From the NCBI RefSeq assembly GCF_000585335.1, contig NZ_KK073872.1, forward strand, positions 2,781,283 through 2,845,282: a stretch of 64,000 nt of DNA, given 5' to 3'. Position 1 is the first letter of the stretch. Each line of letters starts with the position of its first letter. The notes under the pieces were generated by a model. That model saw only the letters and a program-made list of their open reading frames with translations, did no database searches and was not told the DNA's origin. Source of the stretch: Cloacibacillus evryensis DSM 19522 (GTDB lineage Bacteria; Synergistota; Synergistia; Synergistales; Synergistaceae). The position numbers and the translations under genes are program-made. Shown piece after piece: positions 3,325 through 57,401 of this stretch.

Positions 3325-3990
3325 TTAGTCTTCCCCCTCTATCCCTATCACGCGGACTATCCCCGGATGCAGATTCTTTATCACATCGGTATCGACGTGC
3401 TCCTCTGCCGAGTCAAGCTCGATGACCATAGTCGCGAGCCCGCCGCGCGTATCGCGGTGGAGCTTCATCGTCGCGATATTCACGTTATGCGCCGACAGGT
3501 ACGAGGTGACCGCGCTCACGACGCCCTGCACGTCGCGGTTCATTATTATGACGGCGGGCAAAGTGCAGGAGATGTCCACCTGAAAACCGTCGAGCTTGTG
3601 AAGGAGGACGGCGCCGCCTCCGATGGAGTAACCGACGGCCTCCATCGTGCGTCCCTCCCCGTCGCCGACGACTACGCGTACCGAGTTTGGATGCGCCCCC
3701 GCCACCTCTTCCGTGTAAAAATGGAAATCCATCCCCGCGGCGCGCGCCAGCGCAAGCGCGTTTCTGATCTCGGGATCATCCTGCGTCATTCCCATAAGGC
3801 CGGCGATCAGCGCCTTGTCCGTACCATGTCCCGCGCCTGTGCTCGCAAAGCTTCCGCGCATATATAGGTCGGCCCTCTTTACCTCGCCGCCCCAGCACAT
3901 GCGGACGATACGCCCTATGTGGGCCGCGCCGGCTGTATGGCTAGAAGAGGGGCCGGTCATGACCGGGCCGATTATCTCCCAAACGGGCAT
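3325..3990 (-). CDS. sdaAB: L-serine dehydratase, iron-sulfur-dependent, beta subunit
   Basis: 221 residues: the amino-terminal GPSSSHTAGA signature (about residues 12-21) of the beta chain, then a carboxy-terminal ACT-type regulatory domain (about 145-218) that in relatives senses serine. First gene of the operon. AGGTGA lies a few bases before the ATG, and the 220-bp AT-rich region upstream separates it from the divergent hydrogenase gene. Confidence 0.93.
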   Translation of the reverse strand: MPVWEIIGPVMTGPSSSHTAGAAHIGRIVRMCWGGEVKRADLYMRGSFASTGAGHGTDKALIAGLMGMTQDDPEIRNALALARAAGMDFHFYTEEVAGAHPNSVRVVVGDGEGRTMEAVGYSIGGGAVLLHKLDGFQVDISCTLPAVIIMNRDVQGVVSAVTSYLSAHNVNIATMKLHRDTRGGLATMVIELDSAEEHVDTDVIKNLHPGIVRVIGIEGED

Positions 3991-5710: not shown

Positions 5711-5727
5711 CGACGACACACGATAAA

Positions 5728-22050: not shown

Positions 22051-22062
22051 AAGACATTTATG

Positions 22063-22152
22063 CTATCTTCCTACGGCGGCATTACCCGCATCAGGTGTAA
22101 GGGTCGAAGTAAATAACTTCCTCTCAGCCTGCCGCGCAAGCTCCCCTGCTTT
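22063..22152 (-). promoter_or_regulatory. TPP riboswitch (THI element)
   Basis: Read on the minus strand it contains GGGGAGC, the invariant CTGAGAGGAAG, GACCCTTACACCTGAT and GGGTAATGCCGCCGTAGGAAG-like ending, the full set of conserved TPP aptamer blocks in the right order. It stands 75 bases upstream of thiC. Confidence 0.97.
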
Positions 22153-22160
22153 GTTGTTTA

Positions 22161-48717: not shown

Positions 48718-48997
48718 ATCCAAACAGTGATATCGACAGATACTCCGAGTATGCTAAAAAAAATCATACATAAGTGAAAGAAACGATACCCTGAATAACT
48801 CATCGATGGTAAATTTAGCCGTAAATACAGTGTTTTTAGCTTAAAACCAGATTTTAAGCAAAAATGGGACAAATAACATTAAAACGAGATAAATAACGCA
48901 AATTCCTTCATTTATCGTTTAATTGACCATATATTAAAACCATGCTAGAATGAACGAAAGATTTAAGCTAATAATGTTTGATTATGAACACACAAAA
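48718..48997 (+). other. AT-rich region holding the first surface-protein promoter
   Basis: No gene. A weak stem GCTTAAAA/TTTTAAGC lies at 48839-48859. From about 48880 on, the sequence resembles the region before the second module (CGAGATAAATAACGC block, GTTTAATTGACC or GTTAATTGACC), so upstream promoter DNA is part of the duplication. Confidence 0.55.
48923..48951 (+). promoter_or_regulatory. promoter of surface-protein module 1
   Basis: TTGACC (48923-48928), 17 bases, TAGAAT (48946-48951). The same elements with the same spacing stand before module 2. Confidence 0.7.
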
Positions 48998-49079
48998 AAG
49001 TAAAAGGCAAGCCCGTTGAAAAACGGAGCACGCAAAACTATAGGGTCTTACCCCGTCAGGGATGACAGCCAGTTACCTT
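48998..49079 (+). promoter_or_regulatory. cyclic di-GMP-I (GEMM) riboswitch, copy 1
   Basis: The aptamer shows the GEMM order: GGCAAGCC, a CCGTT-GAAA-AACGG stem with GNRA tetraloop, CACGCAAA, a second helix with GGGTCT, GATGACAGCC and GTTACC at the end. The terminator follows at 49097. Identified by eye from the consensus; ligand class (c-di-GMP or 3',3'-cGAMP) not settled. Confidence 0.88.
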
Positions 49080-49096
49080 CAAAGGTCCCATCAGGA

Positions 49097-49131
49097 CGTC
49101 GCCGGCTGTATATACCGGCGGCGTTTTCTTT
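49097..49131 (+). terminator. riboswitch terminator, copy 1
   Basis: CGTCGCCGG pairs with CCGGCGGCG (one wobble), loop of 9, then TTTTCTTT. ACCTT/AAGGT and GTCC/GGAC short stems just before it offer an alternative fold, so it can be the expression platform. Confidence 0.82.
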
Positions 49132-49154
49132 ATCAAAAAGAGGGGGGCGAAGTG

Positions 49155-49244
49155 ATGCGAACAGGTTTTGCGGTAAATATTACAAATAACATTACCCCCC
49201 CCATGTTGTCTGTATGTATCTGCACATCTAAACACATCCGTTAG
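49155..49244 (+). CDS. conserved short ORF in the leader, copy 1
   Basis: 29 codons from ATG 49155, 7 bases after a GGGGGG Shine-Dalgarno-like run. The first 16 residues (MRTGFAVNITNNITPP) are identical in the second module, while the rest differs. A run of eight C (49195-49202) encodes the Pro residues and can pair with the G run. Could be a leader peptide, or only a by-product of leader duplication. Confidence 0.45.
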   Translation: MRTGFAVNITNNITPPMLSVCICTSKHIR

Positions 49245-49474
49245 TCATTTCATCAAACAGCGGCACGCCAGCCGTCTATATATACCGTCATGCAGCCCAA
49301 AAACCTGGGACGGCTGCGACGTGGCCTTCAATCTGCGATGTTGAAAAAACGACGGCATCCTAGCGGCCACGGCGCACCGTCCGTCATGCGGACAGATACT
49401 ACACGGACGCCGGCCGACAAGATTTGCGTGGTTTCTGCGTAATGTTATTTTGGATATGATTGAAGGAGAAAGGT
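49245..49474 (+). other. rest of leader 1
   Basis: About 230 bases unlike leader 2. An inverted pair CAGCCGTC/GACGGCTG (49269-49276, 49309-49316) may fold. AAGGAG at 49463-49468 serves the surface-protein gene. Confidence 0.45.
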
Positions 49475-52400
49475 GTGGTTAAATTGTTGAAATTATACAA
49501 AAAAAGGACTCTTGCGTCGTTTCTTATCACAATCTTTATAATGGTCGGCACGGCGTGGGCGGGCGGCATCGCTTACAATTCGGGCGACAGTAAGGCATTA
49601 AAGGAAGATGTCGCAACCAACGACATACTCTCGCCGTACGCTAACGGGAGCAATAAACTTACCCTTACAGGGAAAGAGGGAACATCCGAGAGCGATCGTT
49701 CAGACAAAAACTTTGTCATATACGGGGCGAGCGGCGACGTCGCCGGAGACTCCTCGCTTGTCCTGGACTGGCAGGCGGAGCTGTATACCCAGGGCAAGGT
49801 GCAGTTTTTCGCCGGAGGCGACGGCTCGAATGTGACGGGCAACTCCAGCCTCACGGTCAACGCGGCGGACGATTCGATCATGTATGCGTATGGAGGCGCT
49901 CCAGGCGCCCAGCAATCAATAATCCTGGCAGGAAGCCCGAACGGCGGCACCGTCACGGGGAATACGAAACTGACGATCAACGGAGCCCTCGGAAATGCTT
50001 GTTATTTGAAGGCGAGCGGAGCGGCGATGATAGATAAAGCCGGCGCCCTTACCGTCAACGGCGACAGCACTGTGGAGATCAGCGCCTCCTGTGAGGTTGG
50101 AGACGGGATCGGCGCGAACGGCGGCCTGCATATCGTCGCCAACGGATTAAAAGCCGATGAAACGGCACGCGGCATCTTAAAGGGCAAGGCGACACTGATA
50201 ATAGACAACCCGAACGCGAGAGTCGAGCAGATATGGGGCGGCAATAATTCCGTGGCAAACAGCGGCCACACGTATGCGGCGACGGAAAGCGTTGCGGTCT
50301 ATCTGAGGCAGGGCAAAGTCGGCGCCGTAACGGCCGGCCCGTCAAGTTGGGGGAAAACCGCCGAGGCCGTTGTCTCAAAAGACGTCTATGTAGAGGTGAC
50401 GAGCGCGGATTTCAGCTCCTTCAGCCACTATCTTGGCGGCGGCGGAGTCAGTTGGGGTGAAGGCAGCCGCGCCATCGTCAAGGGGAACACGTCGGTCGCG
50501 GTAAAGGGCGGCGGCGGCATCGACTTACTGGTCGGCGGCGGCCTGGGCCGCGCCGGCGGCAACGCCGACGTCGAGGGCAATACGAACATCGCGATCATCG
50601 GAGACGCCGGGCTCAAGGCTCTGACAAAAGACGCCTGGATAATCGCCGGCGGAAAGCGGACCGGCTCTGGCAGCGCCGCGGTCGGTGGGAATGCCACGAT
50701 AACTTTCGCGGATATTGAGAAGGGCGTGTTTGCCGGGAACATAACGGGTCAGGGAATTCTGCGCGATGATAACGATAAGCCCTATGACAAGAACGACAAT
50801 GACGCCTTTTACACCACCTCCGTCCTCGGCGATTCCGTCCTTGTCTTCGACAACGTGAAAGCCGACTTCTCCGACGCTAAAATAAAGGAGATGGACAGAG
50901 TCGAGATCGCCAACGGCACGGAGCTGACGCTTTCGAGCCTCGGCGGGGCGAAGGAACTTAAACTCACAGGCGCATGGTCAAGCACGGGCAAGCTCACGCC
51001 CATGAAGTTCAGCAACGCCGCGCCTTCCGATGTGACAATTGATACCTCCGAAGCGACGGGCATCCTCTACGCTGCATTCAACGCAGAGAGAACCGAGCTT
51101 TGCGTTGTAACAAGACCCGTCACAGCCTCCCCTGACAACCTGACGCTCACGTATAAGCTCGACACTTCGGCGAAACTCACCGCGCAGAGCGACATCGATG
51201 AAGAATTCACATGGAAGTCGAGCAATTTGGGCTATGTTTCAGTGGACCAGGACGGAAAGGTCACCCCAATTAACGTCGGGCGCGCAACGATCACAGCAAC
51301 AGGCAAAACAAGCAACCTCGTCGGTTCCTGTTACGTCACCGTAAGGGACGCCGACGACGTTACTGTATCCCCTTCTTCCGCGGCGATAAAAGTAGGCGAA
51401 ACAAAACAACTGGAAGCGGCCCATGACGGCAAAGACAAGATAACCGGCTGGACCTCTGGCAATACTGCTGTCGCTACGGTCAGCGGCAGCGGCGACAGCG
51501 CCACAGTAACGGCGCTCAAGCCCGGCGACGCAGTCATCACTGCGACAGGGGCAAGCGGCAAAACGGGGACCAGCACAATAACCGTCAATAAGTCTAATGT
51601 CACGATAAACGGCGACCTGCGCGACGGCAACCTCGTCCTCACGCTCAGGACAGACTCTGAGTCCAAGCCCATCACCGCCTCCAGCGACATCACCGAGACC
51701 TTTACATGGACGACAAGCGACGCATCCATCGCTAAGGTCGGCGAAACCTCCGGCATAGTCACCGGCGTCAGCGCGGGCAGCGCCGACGTCACGGCCACGG
51801 GCGTGAAGGGCGAAGGCGTAAAGACGATAAAAGTGATCGTCGCCGAGCCCGGCGATGTGGTGGTTACACCCGCCAGCTTCGACGTCAAAGTGGATGAAGA
51901 AAAGAGCCTCACCGTTACCTGCGACCCAGAAGACAAGATAACGAAATGGGCCTCTGACAAACCGGAGATTGCCACGGTAACAACAAACGGCAAAGTCAGA
52001 GGGGTCAAGCCCGGGACAGCCACGATCACCGCAACGGCGCAGAGCGGCAAATCCACCGCCAGCAGCGTGACGGTGAACAAATCCGTCGTCACGCTCGACA
52101 AGACGGAAATAACCCTCAAACCGGCAGCAACGGCGACCGTCAAAGCGGCGAGCGACATCAGCGAAAGCGTCAGCTTCGTCTCCGACAATGAAAAGGTGGC
52201 TAAGGTGAATGCGGCCACCGGTGAAATCACGGCGCTGGCGGCCGGCAAGACCAACATCACTGCCACGGGCGCGCGCGGAGAGGGAACCGCCTCCTGCACC
52301 GTCACGGTGGAGACACCGAAGGCCGTAACGGTCCTCCCGCCCACACTCAGCATCGAAATCGGCAAGACCGGCACTGTAATCACCAGCTATGACACGTATG

Positions 52401-53308
52401 AAACTGTAACGTGGAGCACAAGCGACGGGACGGTAGCCACGGTCAAAGACGGGACGGTAACGGCGGTCAAAGCCGGCATAGCTGTGATCACGGCGACTGG
52501 CAAATTGAGCGGCAACAACGCGGGCTGCACCGTCACGGTAACCGACCCGGAGACCCCTGCCCCCACGCCCACACCGACGCCGGTGACCCCAAGCACAATT
52601 GACGAAAAGAACAACCCGATAAACGACGACGAAGGCGTTCCCAATGAAGTGAAGCCCGCCACCCCTGCCGCGACCGAAGCCACGACGGAGAACAAGGCCA
52701 ACCTGGCAGAGAAGTCAGGCATCGCGTCCACTAACCTTGTGTCCACCTCCGACGGTCTTATCGCCATCAGCCCCGTCCTGGCGAAGCAGGCAGTAGAAGA
52801 AGTGAAGTCCAACGATAATACAGTACAGCCGCAAACCATAGCCGCACTTCCGATAGTAACGGCTGCGGTTGAGAAAGAAAAGACGGCGGCGCTCGCCTTC
52901 AAGATGACAGGCAAAGAGCTCGGCGCGCAGGAAAACAGCGTCGTCAGTGACATAACTCTCGTCAAGGTATTCGCAAATGGAACGGGCGGCGTGTTCCAAT
53001 ACGCCGCGACGCCCGACGCCTACGCTGACGAACACTTCACGCTCAAAGACGCGGACGGCAACAACCTGGTCCTGACGGACAACGTCATACCGGCCAACGA
53101 ATACACTCTGATAGTGTTCATCAAAGACGGCGGAAAATTCGACCTCGACAAGGCGGAGGGCTCCGTCATAGACCCGATAGCGATAGCCACGAACGCGGCG
53201 ACAGAGCCGAAATCCGGCAGTTCAAGCAGCGGATGCAACGGCGGCTTCGGCGCGCTGGCGCTCCTCGGGCTCGCGCTTGTGCCGATGTTTTACGGGAAAA
53301 AGAGGTAG
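49475..53308 (+). CDS. giant surface protein 1: beta-helix-like tip, six Ig-like (BIG_2) repeats, Synergist-CTERM tail
   Basis: 1277 residues from GTG 49475, chosen by alignment with the second copy and the AAGGAG ahead (TTG 49484/49487 possible). Signal peptide about 1-31, ending in GTAWA. Residues ~32-550 are Gly/Asn-rich with recurring GNSSLTVN, GNTKLTIN and GNTNIAII units, as in beta-helices. About 551-1027 hold six BIG_2-type repeats (ATVKDGTVTAVKAG, ITATG, VTV). A PTPTPT linker, a ~200-residue domain shared with the paralogue, and the tail SGSSSSGCNGGFGALALLGL + hydrophobic + GKKR follow. Exported and probably held in or processed at the envelope by the Synergist-CTERM system. Likely an adhesin, controlled by the upstream riboswitch. 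No enzyme motif seen. Confidence 0.88.
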   Translation: MVKLLKLYKKRTLASFLITIFIMVGTAWAGGIAYNSGDSKALKEDVATNDILSPYANGSNKLTLTGKEGTSESDRSDKNFVIYGASGDVAGDSSLVLDWQAELYTQGKVQFFAGGDGSNVTGNSSLTVNAADDSIMYAYGGAPGAQQSIILAGSPNGGTVTGNTKLTINGALGNACYLKASGAAMIDKAGALTVNGDSTVEISASCEVGDGIGANGGLHIVANGLKADETARGILKGKATLIIDNPNARVEQIWGGNNSVANSGHTYAATESVAVYLRQGKVGAVTAGPSSWGKTAEAVVSKDVYVEVTSADFSSFSHYLGGGGVSWGEGSRAIVKGNTSVAVKGGGGIDLLVGGGLGRAGGNADVEGNTNIAIIGDAGLKALTKDAWIIAGGKRTGSGSAAVGGNATITFADIEKGVFAGNITGQGILRDDNDKPYDKNDNDAFYTTSVLGDSVLVFDNVKADFSDAKIKEMDRVEIANGTELTLSSLGGAKELKLTGAWSSTGKLTPMKFSNAAPSDVTIDTSEATGILYAAFNAERTELCVVTRPVTASPDNLTLTYKLDTSAKLTAQSDIDEEFTWKSSNLGYVSVDQDGKVTPINVGRATITATGKTSNLVGSCYVTVRDADDVTVSPSSAAIKVGETKQLEAAHDGKDKITGWTSGNTAVATVSGSGDSATVTALKPGDAVITATGASGKTGTSTITVNKSNVTINGDLRDGNLVLTLRTDSESKPITASSDITETFTWTTSDASIAKVGETSGIVTGVSAGSADVTATGVKGEGVKTIKVIVAEPGDVVVTPASFDVKVDEEKSLTVTCDPEDKITKWASDKPEIATVTTNGKVRGVKPGTATITATAQSGKSTASSVTVNKSVVTLDKTEITLKPAATATVKAASDISESVSFVSDNEKVAKVNAATGEITALAAGKTNITATGARGEGTASCTVTVETPKAVTVLPPTLSIEIGKTGTVITSYDTYETVTWSTSDGTVATVKDGTVTAVKAGIAVITATGKLSGNNAGCTVTVTDPETPAPTPTPTPVTPSTIDEKNNPINDDEGVPNEVKPATPAATEATTENKANLAEKSGIASTNLVSTSDGLIAISPVLAKQAVEEVKSNDNTVQPQTIAALPIVTAAVEKEKTAALAFKMTGKELGAQENSVVSDITLVKVFANGTGGVFQYAATPDAYADEHFTLKDADGNNLVLTDNVIPANEYTLIVFIKDGGKFDLDKAEGSVIDPIAIATNAATEPKSGSSSSGCNGGFGALALLGLALVPMFYGKKR

Positions 53309-53498: not shown

Positions 53499-53527
53499 TT
53501 GACCATAAATTAAAATGATACTAGTAT
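53499..53527 (+). promoter_or_regulatory. promoter of surface-protein module 2
   Basis: TTGACC (53499-53504), 17 bases, TAGTAT (53522-53527), equivalent to the module 1 promoter. Confidence 0.68.
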
Positions 53528-53573
53528 GTATAAAAGATTTTAACAGGCAGTATTTGATTATGAACACACAAAA

Positions 53574-53655
53574 AAGTAAAAGGCAAGCCCGTTGAAAGAC
53601 GGAGCACGCAAAACTATAGGGTCTTACCCCGTCAGGGATGACAGCCAGTTACCTT
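53574..53655 (+). promoter_or_regulatory. cyclic di-GMP-I (GEMM) riboswitch, copy 2
   Basis: Same aptamer as copy 1, with one substitution in the tetraloop stem (AACGG to GACGG, turning a pair into a wobble). All conserved blocks are intact. Confidence 0.88.
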
Positions 53656-53672
53656 CAAAGGTCCCATCAGGA

Positions 53673-53707
53673 CGTCGCCGGCTGTATATGTCGGCGGCGT
53701 TTTCTTT
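53673..53707 (+). terminator. riboswitch terminator, copy 2
   Basis: CGTCGCCGG with TCGGCGGCG and TTTTCTTT. Changes relative to copy 1 fall in the loop and one closing pair, so the stem is kept. Confidence 0.82.
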
Positions 53708-53730
53708 ATCAAAAAGAGGGGGGCGGAGTG

Positions 53731-53823
53731 ATGCGAACAGGTTTTGCGGTAAATATTACAAATAACATTACCCCCCCCCCGCGTGTTCTCTACTTGTATT
53801 CATTCATCAAACACATCCGCTAG
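53731..53823 (+). CDS. conserved short ORF in the leader, copy 2
   Basis: 30 codons from ATG 53731 after a GGGGGG run, beginning MRTGFAVNITNNITPP as in copy 1. Its C run is ten long (53771-53780) against eight in copy 1, and the peptide ends differ after it. Coding status unproven. Confidence 0.45.
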   Translation: MRTGFAVNITNNITPPPRVLYLYSFIKHIR

Positions 53824-54047
53824 TCGTTCTTTCAGACAAAGGCGCGCCAGCCGCGCCACGCCGCCATGCGGCCCGGAAAAATTTCAGCCCCGTCTCCAAA
53901 TTGGACGCGCCGCAGACAGGCGTGTGCCGTTTTATCTTTGCGCACCTCCCAAGATACACAAAGAGGAGGTGCGTCGATAAATACATCCCTCAAAGCGGCT
54001 GTTTCTTCGTGAACGGGTAGAAAAATTTAGTATTTTGAAAGAAAGGT
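53824..54047 (+). other. rest of leader 2
   Basis: About 220 bases. CGCACCTCC (53941-53949) pairs exactly with GGAGGTGCG (53965-53973); this hides a strong Shine-Dalgarno-like sequence which has no start codon after it. GAAAGG at 54041-54046 precedes the GTG start. Confidence 0.45.
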
Positions 54048-57000
54048 GTGGTGAAATTGTTGAAATTTGGGAAAAAGGGAATCATCACGTTTTTAGTAGC
54101 GGCGCTGGTAATGGTATTCGCGTCGGGAGCATGGGCGGCAACATCAATCTCGGATGTAGAAGGCCTAAAGGAAGCGTTCGCAAAGGGTGGCGAGTATCAG
54201 TTAACGGAAGACTTGACACTCACAGGCGCACTTAGCACAGACCAAAAGGTCACCTTGGACGTGGCCGGTCATACAATATTTACATCTTATGATATAAGCG
54301 TTGGGGACGAGACCACTATGAAAGGCGGCAATTTGACACTTAATAATACCGCCGCTATTACCGGAGGAATTACTCTCACGGTTGTCCAAGACTACGGGGC
54401 AAAAATATACGGCAATAAGCTGCTTGTATACGGCAATACAGGACCAGAACCTACGGCTGAAAAATCATCCGTGGATTCAGTATTAACAATCAATACAGGA
54501 GTAAAAATCCATTCTGAGAGTGGCTATTATACCGTGTACGTCTGCGGTAAAGGAGCTACGCTCAACCTAAATGGAGGCGAAATCATAGCCTCGCAAAAAA
54601 TAGGAGCCGCGGCAATCCAAGGTAACGGAAGGCCGGAAAATGGTGGCACAACCATCAATATCAACAGTGGAAAGGTTGAGGGAGGCCCAATTTTAGATAG
54701 CAACAAAGAAAGCGGATGCGCGATATATCATCCGCAGGATGGCGTCTTAAAAATCAGCGGCGGAACCATCACTGGGTACGACGGCGTACAGCTTAAAGCC
54801 GGCAAACTAGTTATGACTGGCGGCGTTATTAAAGCAACAGGAGCAAAACCAGAAAAATATCCGGACAGCAGTAATGGTTCCGTGGTTACTGCATGCGCAA
54901 TATCGCTAATATCAAATGAAAGCTATACGGGAGATATAAACGTAGATATTTCCGGAAAGGCAGAACTGGAAAGTACCAAAGCATGCGCTGTATTTTCTAA
55001 GATAACAGTCGGCGATAACAAGGTCAATAAAATTGAGATTAGCGGCGGTTCCTTCCGCGGCGGAGATCAGGCTCTGTTACTTGAAGATGCCGAAAACATC
55101 GATATTTCCCTCACCGGCGGCAGCTACAGCAGCAATCCGAGCGCTTATGTCGCGGACAGGGAGAAGTACGTCATCGTTGAAAAAGACGGTAAATATGTCG
55201 TAGAGCAAGTATACGTTAATGTGGCACCGGAAAGCATTGAGCTTTGGCTCAACACCCAGTTAAAGAAAACGGCAAAACTGGAGCCAACCAGCAATAAAAC
55301 TGGAGCAACTTTCAAATGGGAATCCTCTACGCCCACCATCGTGAGCGTTGACCAGACGGGCAACATCACCGCGCTGGCAGTGGGTTCGGCCGATGTGACC
55401 GCGAGAGAAACCGTAAGCGGCGCTTCTGGAACCTGCCAAGTTACCGTGCGTAAAGCCGGCCCAGTCACCGTGTCACCCGCCTCAGTAAACCTCGTTCTCA
55501 ATGCCTCGCCGACAGCGCAGCTTACGGCATCGTGCGATAAAGCCGAGAGCGTCACGTGGCAGTCCAGCGATGGTAGCATTGTGACCGTAGACAATTCCGG
55601 CACAGTCACTGCCGTAAAAGAGGGTAAAGCTAACGTCACGGCCACCGGCAAAACAAGCGGTTTCTCTGATACCTGTGCAGTCACCGTGAGTCGGGCAAAG
55701 ATCACCATGACGCCAAACACTAAAGAACTCGTCCTTAACATTTCACAGACAGCCGCACTGGCGGCTTCCAGCGATTTTGAAGAGGAGCTCGAATGGAGTT
55801 CCAACAATACCGAAGTCGTGAGCGTCGACCAGAAGGGCAATATCACAGCTCTGGCAGTGGGTTCGGCCGATGTCACCGCAAAGGGCAAAAAGAGCCTCTC
55901 CGTCGGAACCTGCGCGGTTAATGTACGCGCGGCGAACCCCGTCGAAGTAACGCCGCTCACCGAGGAATTTATTCTCAACATCTCGCCCGCGAAACAGCTT
56001 ACGGCAACGTGCGATGCCGCCGAGAGCGTCACATGGAATTCAGACAAGACTGACATTGTAACAGTAGACGATTCCGGCAAGATCACCGCCATCGGCTTAG
56101 GCACGGCCAACGTCACCGCTACGGGCAGCGTGAGCGGCTTTAAGTCCGCCCCCTGCGTCGTTACCGTGCGCCGGGCAAATATCTCCGTGACGCCGACAGA
56201 GGTGGAACTCATCCTCGGTATAGCGCCGACTTACCAATTGGAGGCCGACAGTGAGGTTACCGATACTTACACCTGGACTTCAGCCAACAAGGACATCGTG
56301 ACCGTCGACGATTCCGGCAAAATCACCGCCAAAAAAGATGGCACAGCTAACGTCACCGCCACAGGAATCAAAAGCGGCTCAGTCGCAAGCTGTACAGTCA
56401 CAGTACGCACCGCTGAATACGTCGTCGTAACGCCTTCCAAGATGGAACTCGCCATCGGCGCGACAGGCAAGCTCTCGGTCAGAAATGATAAAAAAGACAG
56501 CATAACCTGGGAGAGCAGCGACACAGCCGTCGCCACCGTCAAGGACGGCACGGTAACGGCCGTTAAAGCCGGCATCACCGTCATCACCGCGAATGGGCTC
56601 CATACCTCGGCCGCCTGCACGGTGACCGTCACCGACCCTGCGTCGCCCGATCCCGTCACGCCGACGCCTGCCCCCGTCGCCCCGGGGACGGTAAATAAAG
56701 AAAACAACCCCGTCAATAAAGAAGAAGGCAAACCGGAGAACGTAGAGGCGGCGACGCCGGCCATTACGGAAGCTACCGAGGAAGGTAAAGCCGCCGTAGT
56801 TAGCGCGACAAAGATCGAGGAAAAGAACCTCGTCGCCACCGCCGACGGCAAACTCACGATCAGCCCCGTGCTTGCCAAGAGCGCGCTTGAAGAAGTGATA
56901 TCCGCCGACGCGACAGTCGCGCCGCAGAGCGTGGCCCTGCTTCCGATCGTAAAGGCTGCGGTAACGGCAAATAACGTGGCCGCCCTCGCCTTCACGATGA

Positions 57001-57401
57001 CCGGCGAACAGTTGGGCGCTGAGGAAAACACAATCGCGGGAGACGTCAAGGTGATCAAGGTCCTGGCAGACGGCAAGGGCGGACAGTTCAGCTATGCCTC
57101 CGCGGCGGCAGGCTACGCGGACAAGACCTTCACGCTCAAAGACGCTGACGGCAAGAGCCTCGCCCTGACGGATAAGGTCGCGAAGGCTTCGACCTATACG
57201 CTGGTAATATTCGTAGCCGACAACGGCGACTTCGACCTCGACGCGACGGCCGGCAGCGTGATCGACCCCGTGGCGGTAGCCACCAACGCGGCGACAGAGC
57301 CGAAATCCGGCAGTTCAAGCAGCGGATGCAACGGCGGCTTCGGCGCGCTGGCGCTCCTCGGGCTCGCGCTCGTGCCGATGTTTTACGGGAAAAAGAGGTA
57401 G
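54048..57401 (+). CDS. giant surface protein 2: beta-rich tip, six Ig-like (BIG_2) repeats, Synergist-CTERM tail
   Basis: 1117 residues from GTG 54048 (GTG 54051 and TTG 54057/54060 also possible). Signal peptide about 1-30, ending in GAWA. The tip (~31-385) differs from protein 1: LTLTGAL..., GGTININSG, GGTITGYDGV and GGSFRGGDQ repeats suggest a right-handed beta-helix. Its DNA is AT-richer than the rest of the gene, a sign of separate origin. Six BIG_2 repeats follow (~389-864; SVDQTGNITALAVGSADVTA and variants), a Pro-rich linker, the shared ~200-residue domain, and the same Synergist-CTERM tail. Last ~117 bases differ from gene 1 at one position. Probable adhesin or cell-surface lectin-like protein; ligand unknown. 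Confidence 0.88.
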   Translation: MVKLLKFGKKGIITFLVAALVMVFASGAWAATSISDVEGLKEAFAKGGEYQLTEDLTLTGALSTDQKVTLDVAGHTIFTSYDISVGDETTMKGGNLTLNNTAAITGGITLTVVQDYGAKIYGNKLLVYGNTGPEPTAEKSSVDSVLTINTGVKIHSESGYYTVYVCGKGATLNLNGGEIIASQKIGAAAIQGNGRPENGGTTININSGKVEGGPILDSNKESGCAIYHPQDGVLKISGGTITGYDGVQLKAGKLVMTGGVIKATGAKPEKYPDSSNGSVVTACAISLISNESYTGDINVDISGKAELESTKACAVFSKITVGDNKVNKIEISGGSFRGGDQALLLEDAENIDISLTGGSYSSNPSAYVADREKYVIVEKDGKYVVEQVYVNVAPESIELWLNTQLKKTAKLEPTSNKTGATFKWESSTPTIVSVDQTGNITALAVGSADVTARETVSGASGTCQVTVRKAGPVTVSPASVNLVLNASPTAQLTASCDKAESVTWQSSDGSIVTVDNSGTVTAVKEGKANVTATGKTSGFSDTCAVTVSRAKITMTPNTKELVLNISQTAALAASSDFEEELEWSSNNTEVVSVDQKGNITALAVGSADVTAKGKKSLSVGTCAVNVRAANPVEVTPLTEEFILNISPAKQLTATCDAAESVTWNSDKTDIVTVDDSGKITAIGLGTANVTATGSVSGFKSAPCVVTVRRANISVTPTEVELILGIAPTYQLEADSEVTDTYTWTSANKDIVTVDDSGKITAKKDGTANVTATGIKSGSVASCTVTVRTAEYVVVTPSKMELAIGATGKLSVRNDKKDSITWESSDTAVATVKDGTVTAVKAGITVITANGLHTSAACTVTVTDPASPDPVTPTPAPVAPGTVNKENNPVNKEEGKPENVEAATPAITEATEEGKAAVVSATKIEEKNLVATADGKLTISPVLAKSALEEVISADATVAPQSVALLPIVKAAVTANNVAALAFTMTGEQLGAEENTIAGDVKVIKVLADGKGGQFSYASAAAGYADKTFTLKDADGKSLALTDKVAKASTYTLVIFVADNGDFDLDATAGSVIDPVAVATNAATEPKSGSSSSGCNGGFGALALLGLALVPMFYGKKR

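Follow-up and report, generated by a model that had tools for sequence, protein, structure and literature searches.

Poly-C tracts in leader ORFs behind c-di-GMP-I riboswitches as likely contingency loci of Synergistota surface-protein genes

In a 64-kb stretch of DNA from a gut-type Synergistota bacterium (here called the window), two surface-protein genes are each preceded by a c-di-GMP-I riboswitch and by a short upstream ORF that carries a run of C residues. These leader tracts are not a product of chance, and their sequence context makes it likely that they are contingency loci. The C run probably lets single cells randomly alter the extent to which the leader is translated and hence the amount of surface protein. 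For the resulting scheme of two-input control, in which a c-di-GMP-I riboswitch would be followed by attenuation of the surface protein through a leader ORF set by slippage, we consider the chances to be even.

Organization of the two modules

Both modules lie on the forward strand. Module 1 begins with a promoter (TTGACC, 17 nt, TAGAAT; 48923 to 48951) whose spacer contains no homopolymer, followed by a c-di-GMP-I aptamer at 48996 to 49080, which scored 58.0 bits with Rfam model RF01051 against a gathering threshold of 35. The counterparts in module 2 are a TTGACC-17-TAGTAT promoter (53499 to 53527) and an aptamer at 53572 to 53656 (RF01051, 56.9 bits against 35); the promoter in the genus's other genome (G014) reads TTGACC-17-TACAAT. 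The expression platform consists of a hairpin resembling an intrinsic terminator and a T-run, at 49100 to 49131 in module 1 and 53676 to 53707 in module 2. Next comes the ribosome-site-like G run GAGGGGGG, located at 49140 to 49147 in module 1 (G6 at 49142 to 49147), 7 nt 5' of the leader ATG, and at 53716 to 53723 in module 2. Copy 1 of the leader ORF starts with the ATG at 49155 and reads MRTGFAVNITNNITPPMLSVCICTSKHIR before its stop (29 codons; 49155 to 49244), and copy 2 starts with the ATG at 53731 and reads MRTGFAVNITNNITPPPRVLYLYSFIKHIR before its stop (30 codons; 53731 to 53823). The candidate slipped-strand sites are C8 in copy 1 (49195 to 49202) and C10 in copy 2 (53771 to 53780). 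The gene downstream of copy 1 (49475 to 53308; start GTG or TTG, the exact one being uncertain) encodes a secreted Big_2 repeat protein with a Synerg-CTERM sorting tail, and the gene downstream of copy 2 (54048 to 57401) also encodes a Big_2 repeat protein with such a tail. Elsewhere in the window, a TPP riboswitch aptamer was found on the reverse strand (22051 to 22157).

The original prediction had placed G6, a start codon (ATG, 49155 or 53731), 16 common codons and a C8 or C10 tract behind each riboswitch terminator, and these coordinates proved correct. It had also stated that the copies diverge after the tract. This is not simply so: they can be aligned in 32 of 46 columns up to a common AAACACATCCG(T/C)TAG, and both leader frames end at one aligned TAG (49244 and 53823). 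From just 5' of the aptamer to the tract, the copies are identical at 214 of 219 bases, and on this degree of identity the block is a recent duplication. Since the identity stems from that duplication, the two window copies are not independent evidence. Copy 1 alone contains a 19-nt inverted repeat (84% complementary; 49177 to 49195 and 49439 to 49457), whose arms lie in the conserved element ahead of the tract and immediately 5' of the main gene's ribosome site.

Tract length and association with surface-protein genes

C/G runs in the window become about 8-fold rarer with each added base (360 of length 4, 44 of length 5 and 6 of length 6), and the only runs of at least 7 are the C8 and C10 leader tracts. 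In the whole genome studied (G000), 48 runs are exactly 7 long (by subtraction), followed by 3, 3, 4, 2 and 1 runs of length 8, 9, 10, 11 and 12, respectively; the spectrum thus has a plateau at 8 to 12 instead of a decay, with an excess of long tracts. Measured against both the window and the genome spectra, C8 and C10 are well past the background length, as is typical of homopolymeric-tract contingency loci. Tract length also differs between the two paralogues and the one genome of the other species (C8 in copy 1, C10 in copy 2 and C7 in G014).

Long tracts, defined as C/G runs of at least 8, were counted at the 5' end of each Synerg-CTERM gene. In G014, 8 of the 25 long tracts were found there, versus 0.28 expected (P about 2e-10). 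The corresponding figure in G000 was 2 of 13 (P = 0.002), and these two are the C8 and C10 leader tracts. The closest G014 homologue of the copy 1 protein (71% identical) lies behind a c-di-GMP-I riboswitch whose promoter, TTGACT-TG10TGATG-TAAAAT, has G10 in its spacer, and the promoter of a G014 paralogue, TTGACA-CG9TGATG-TAAAAT, has G9 between its -35 and -10 elements. Both the G10 promoter (L094, tract at 3918) and the G9 promoter (L093, tract at 5715) drive c-di-GMP-I riboswitches of Synerg-CTERM genes. In the L093 copy, a transposase-like insertion interrupts the riboswitch. Several G014 genes carry C8 to C10 tracts in early codons just 5' of the signal-peptide core, the long frame being restored by 0, -1 or +1 base; combined with the Synerg-CTERM enrichment, these tracts fit the pattern of contingency loci. 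The window tracts themselves look like contingency loci because the G014 leader has C7, the homologue has a G10 promoter spacer and the long tracts of G014 are concentrated at Synerg-CTERM 5' ends. Judged from these comparisons, phase variation of the leader is well supported, if indirectly.

Tracts and riboswitches were also noted in other settings. The G014 loci L070 to L074, L077, L079, L081, L087 and L091 encode secreted proteins, many of them Synerg-CTERM, with C/G tracts of 8 to 10 within the first 10 to 24 codons; these tracts precede the signal-peptide core and are in frame in some genes and off by one base in others. In G043, a genome from another genus of the family, a promoter with a poly-G spacer (TTTACA-G8CAAATGTG-TAAAAT; L007/L102) precedes a c-di-GMP-I riboswitch, and the gene downstream of the latter resembles, by eye, a periplasmic solute-binding or sensor protein. 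Runs of G9 to G11 at L061 and L067 (G000) and L084 (G014) sit between small genes that resemble, by eye, phage tail-fibre modules in duplicated prophage-like regions, and the tail fibres are possibly phase-variable. Finally, c-di-GMP-I riboswitches at L012 and L020 (G014) and at L010 and L021 (G043) lie 5' of secreted proteins that look serpin-like by eye. A literature search found no paper on Cloacibacillus and phase variation together and none that uses the term Synerg-CTERM.

The leader in a second species and its reading phases

Among 188 genomes of the phylum, a clear homologue of the leader was found only in G014, and the genomes outside the genus gave only short, chance-level matches. 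No other copies were found in viral contigs, plasmids or phages. One exact 21-base match occurs in a Gammaproteobacteria MAG contig (L029). The G014 leader occupies the syntenic locus, adjoining the same transporter gene; the aptamer at this locus has decayed, with its 5' part gone, and is absent from the c-di-GMP-I matches found in G014. The leader retains a ribosome site (GAGGGAGG), an ATG and an open frame into C7, reading MSADFVINITNNITPPVVYMYLFLI before its stop (25 codons). The shortness of this C7 tract speaks against the slippage scheme. Between the species, the region from SD to ATG together with codon 8 to the tract has 4 mismatches in 51 positions, versus 9 in 18 for codons 2 to 7 (Fisher P = 3e-4), and the peptide NITNNITPP is fully conserved. 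The original prediction of a translated leader is thus backed by a conserved ribosome site, ATG and open frame, from which we infer translation itself.

After the tract, the frame of G014 (C7) is that of copy 2 (C10), and copy 1 (C8) is one base off; in silico, copy 1 with C9 would give HVVCMYLHI before its stop, resembling VVYMYLFLI of G014. A one-base slip, likewise in silico, moves the leader stop from 29 to 25 or 62 codons in copy 1, from 30 to 82 or 96 codons in copy 2 and from 25 to 62 or 29 codons in G014. By tract length, the predicted stop of copy 1 falls at 49229 to 49231 with C9 and at 49342 to 49344 with C7 or C10, and that of copy 2 at 53978 to 53980 with C9 and at 54018 to 54020 with C8 or C11. 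Coding constraint in the long frame was unconvincing: the mismatches by codon position number 11, 6 and 12, so the post-tract peptide is weakly conserved and nothing more than ordinary open frames may underlie the long phases.

The long phases enter or cross hairpins, and those hairpins that are reached by long phases alone have no convincing T-runs; an example is the strong hairpin at 53933 to 53979 (-19.3 kcal/mol), which lacks a T-run. No convincing intrinsic terminator was found 3' of the tract in copy 1 or G014. A C-rich, G-poor stretch follows the tract in all three copies, the one in copy 1 (49181 to 49300; for example C19/G6 per 60 nt at 49181) being a candidate Rho loading region, and rho is present. 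With such a stretch and no clear intrinsic terminator after the tract, Rho would be the more likely agent, and Rho-dependent termination after the tract appears plausible from the sequence.

Proposed mechanism, alternatives and known systems

We propose that a constitutive-looking promoter would transcribe the c-di-GMP-I riboswitch and its terminator, and that transcripts running past the terminator would continue into about 340 nt of additional leader, which opens with a presumably translated short ORF carrying the poly-C run. In living cells, slipped-strand mispairing would add or remove C residues and change the reading frame after the tract. An early stop, after about 25 to 30 codons, is what all three known copies now have. 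With a late stop, after 62 to 96 codons, ribosomes would traverse the C-rich stretch and its hairpins and thereby protect the leader against early termination, which would probably be Rho-dependent, and more Synerg-CTERM surface protein would be made. We infer this effect of leader length on the downstream gene, and that leader-ORF attenuation is what the contingency tract brings about seems to us neither favored nor disfavored. A broader proposal, which we put forward only tentatively and with low confidence, is that of a combined gate: the riboswitch would stand in series with the poly-C leader ORF, the C run would serve both as frame switch and as part of the Rho loading site, a heritable random switch would decide whether the second-messenger signal reaches the surface gene, and related species would differ in where these genes under riboswitch control carry the hypervariable tract, some having it in the leader and others in the promoter spacer.

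A contingency tract might instead act through RNA or DNA structure and not through the frame, by hiding the ribosome site or by tuning RNA stability or an internal promoter. The original prediction had suggested that the G run and C run pair and so hide the ribosome site. Indeed, pairing of about 6 bp between the SD and the C tract is predicted in both window copies, and poly-G does occupy riboswitch promoters in G014. However, the predicted pairing does not exceed that of dinucleotide shuffles (z = -0.3, -0.7 and -1.4) and hardly responds when the tract is varied between C7 and C12 (copy 1) or between C8 and C12 (copy 2). Being so insensitive to the number of C residues around the lengths now found in the two window copies, and not above shuffles, the pairing is an unlikely switch, and we rejected it in that role. 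An internal promoter spanning the tract was rejected too, as no sigma-70-like promoter spanning the leader tracts was found on either strand. An action through structure is thus improbable in our estimate. We judge it equally improbable that the leader ORF is constitutive, as a translated attenuator or as a small peptide, and has a C run that just encodes Pro-Pro and is not hypervariable; NITNNITPP is identical between the species and C7 to C10 could be fixed differences, but runs of 8 and 10 C lie far beyond the local run-length spectrum, and the post-tract frame of copy 1 differs from that of the other two copies.

The leader could also be a decayed relic without present function, namely what remains, 3' of the riboswitch, of a duplication that copied the 5' end of a phase-variable surface gene. 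In G014, the genes of phase-variable secreted proteins have 5' ends of similar layout (SD, ATG, 13 to 24 codons, poly-C and a hydrophobic stretch). Homology to the 5' ends of those poly-C genes was nevertheless rejected, the similarity being mostly, and overall, not significant; moreover, the SD, the start and the tract flank were conserved while codons 2 to 7 drifted, which makes a relic an unlikely reading. Homopolymer length in assemblies is error-prone, and the window lengths come from a single assembly. Even so, we give almost no credence to the idea that the tract lengths are assembly errors and the difference between C8 and C10 meaningless, since the runs stay outliers even with one-base errors and the corresponding position in an independent genome carries C7. 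An invertible DNA switch was unsupported, copy 2 having no inverted-repeat pair and copy 1 one imperfect pair.

The proposed frame-dependent attenuation resembles that of Streptococcus gallolyticus pil1 and pil3, which are phase-variable through leader-peptide attenuation, proven for pil1, where the leader stop shifts in this way (PMC3894217). In both cases a leader ORF that has a ribosome site and start codon of its own contains the repeat, repeat number sets the leader stop (here 25 to 30 versus 62 to 96 codons, in silico) and the downstream product is at the surface (an adhesin for pil, a surface protein here). Unlike the GCAGA pentamers of pil1 and pil3, the repeat here is a homopolymer of C, a c-di-GMP-I riboswitch and terminator lie upstream, and no clear intrinsic terminator follows the ORF, a Rho-type mechanism being more likely in what is here computed from sequence. 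Phase-variable leader peptides are rarely described, and our literature searches returned a single worked example, that of pil1 and pil3.

Single leaders that combine a second-messenger riboswitch in series with a heritable switch are known from C. difficile flgB and cmrRST (PMC8844915, PMC7446863): a phase-variable switch there comes after a c-di-GMP riboswitch, and the flgB leader is subject to the action of Rho. In contrast to the tracts described here, those switches use recombinase-inverted DNA between inverted repeats, and serial control by riboswitch and phase switch was found in the literature only for such invertible DNA in C. difficile. Homopolymeric-tract contingency loci are known in Campylobacter, Neisseria and Helicobacter (e.g., PMC8355987, PMC2823697), where the promoters or early codons of phase-variable genes hold G/C tracts. 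The window tracts differ in that a riboswitch precedes them and the ORF that contains them is a distinct leader; they also come from Synergistota, a phylum for which the literature searches gave no report. The poly-G tracts of G014 (L093, L094) and G043 (L007) share the riboswitch class with the window and, in G014, also the surface-protein group, but they lie between -35 and -10 and not in the leader. If true, the proposed mechanism would suggest that phase-variable Synerg-CTERM surface proteins, on which we found no literature, form a set that spans the genus, and would represent a homopolymer-based serial riboswitch and phase switch in Synergistota.
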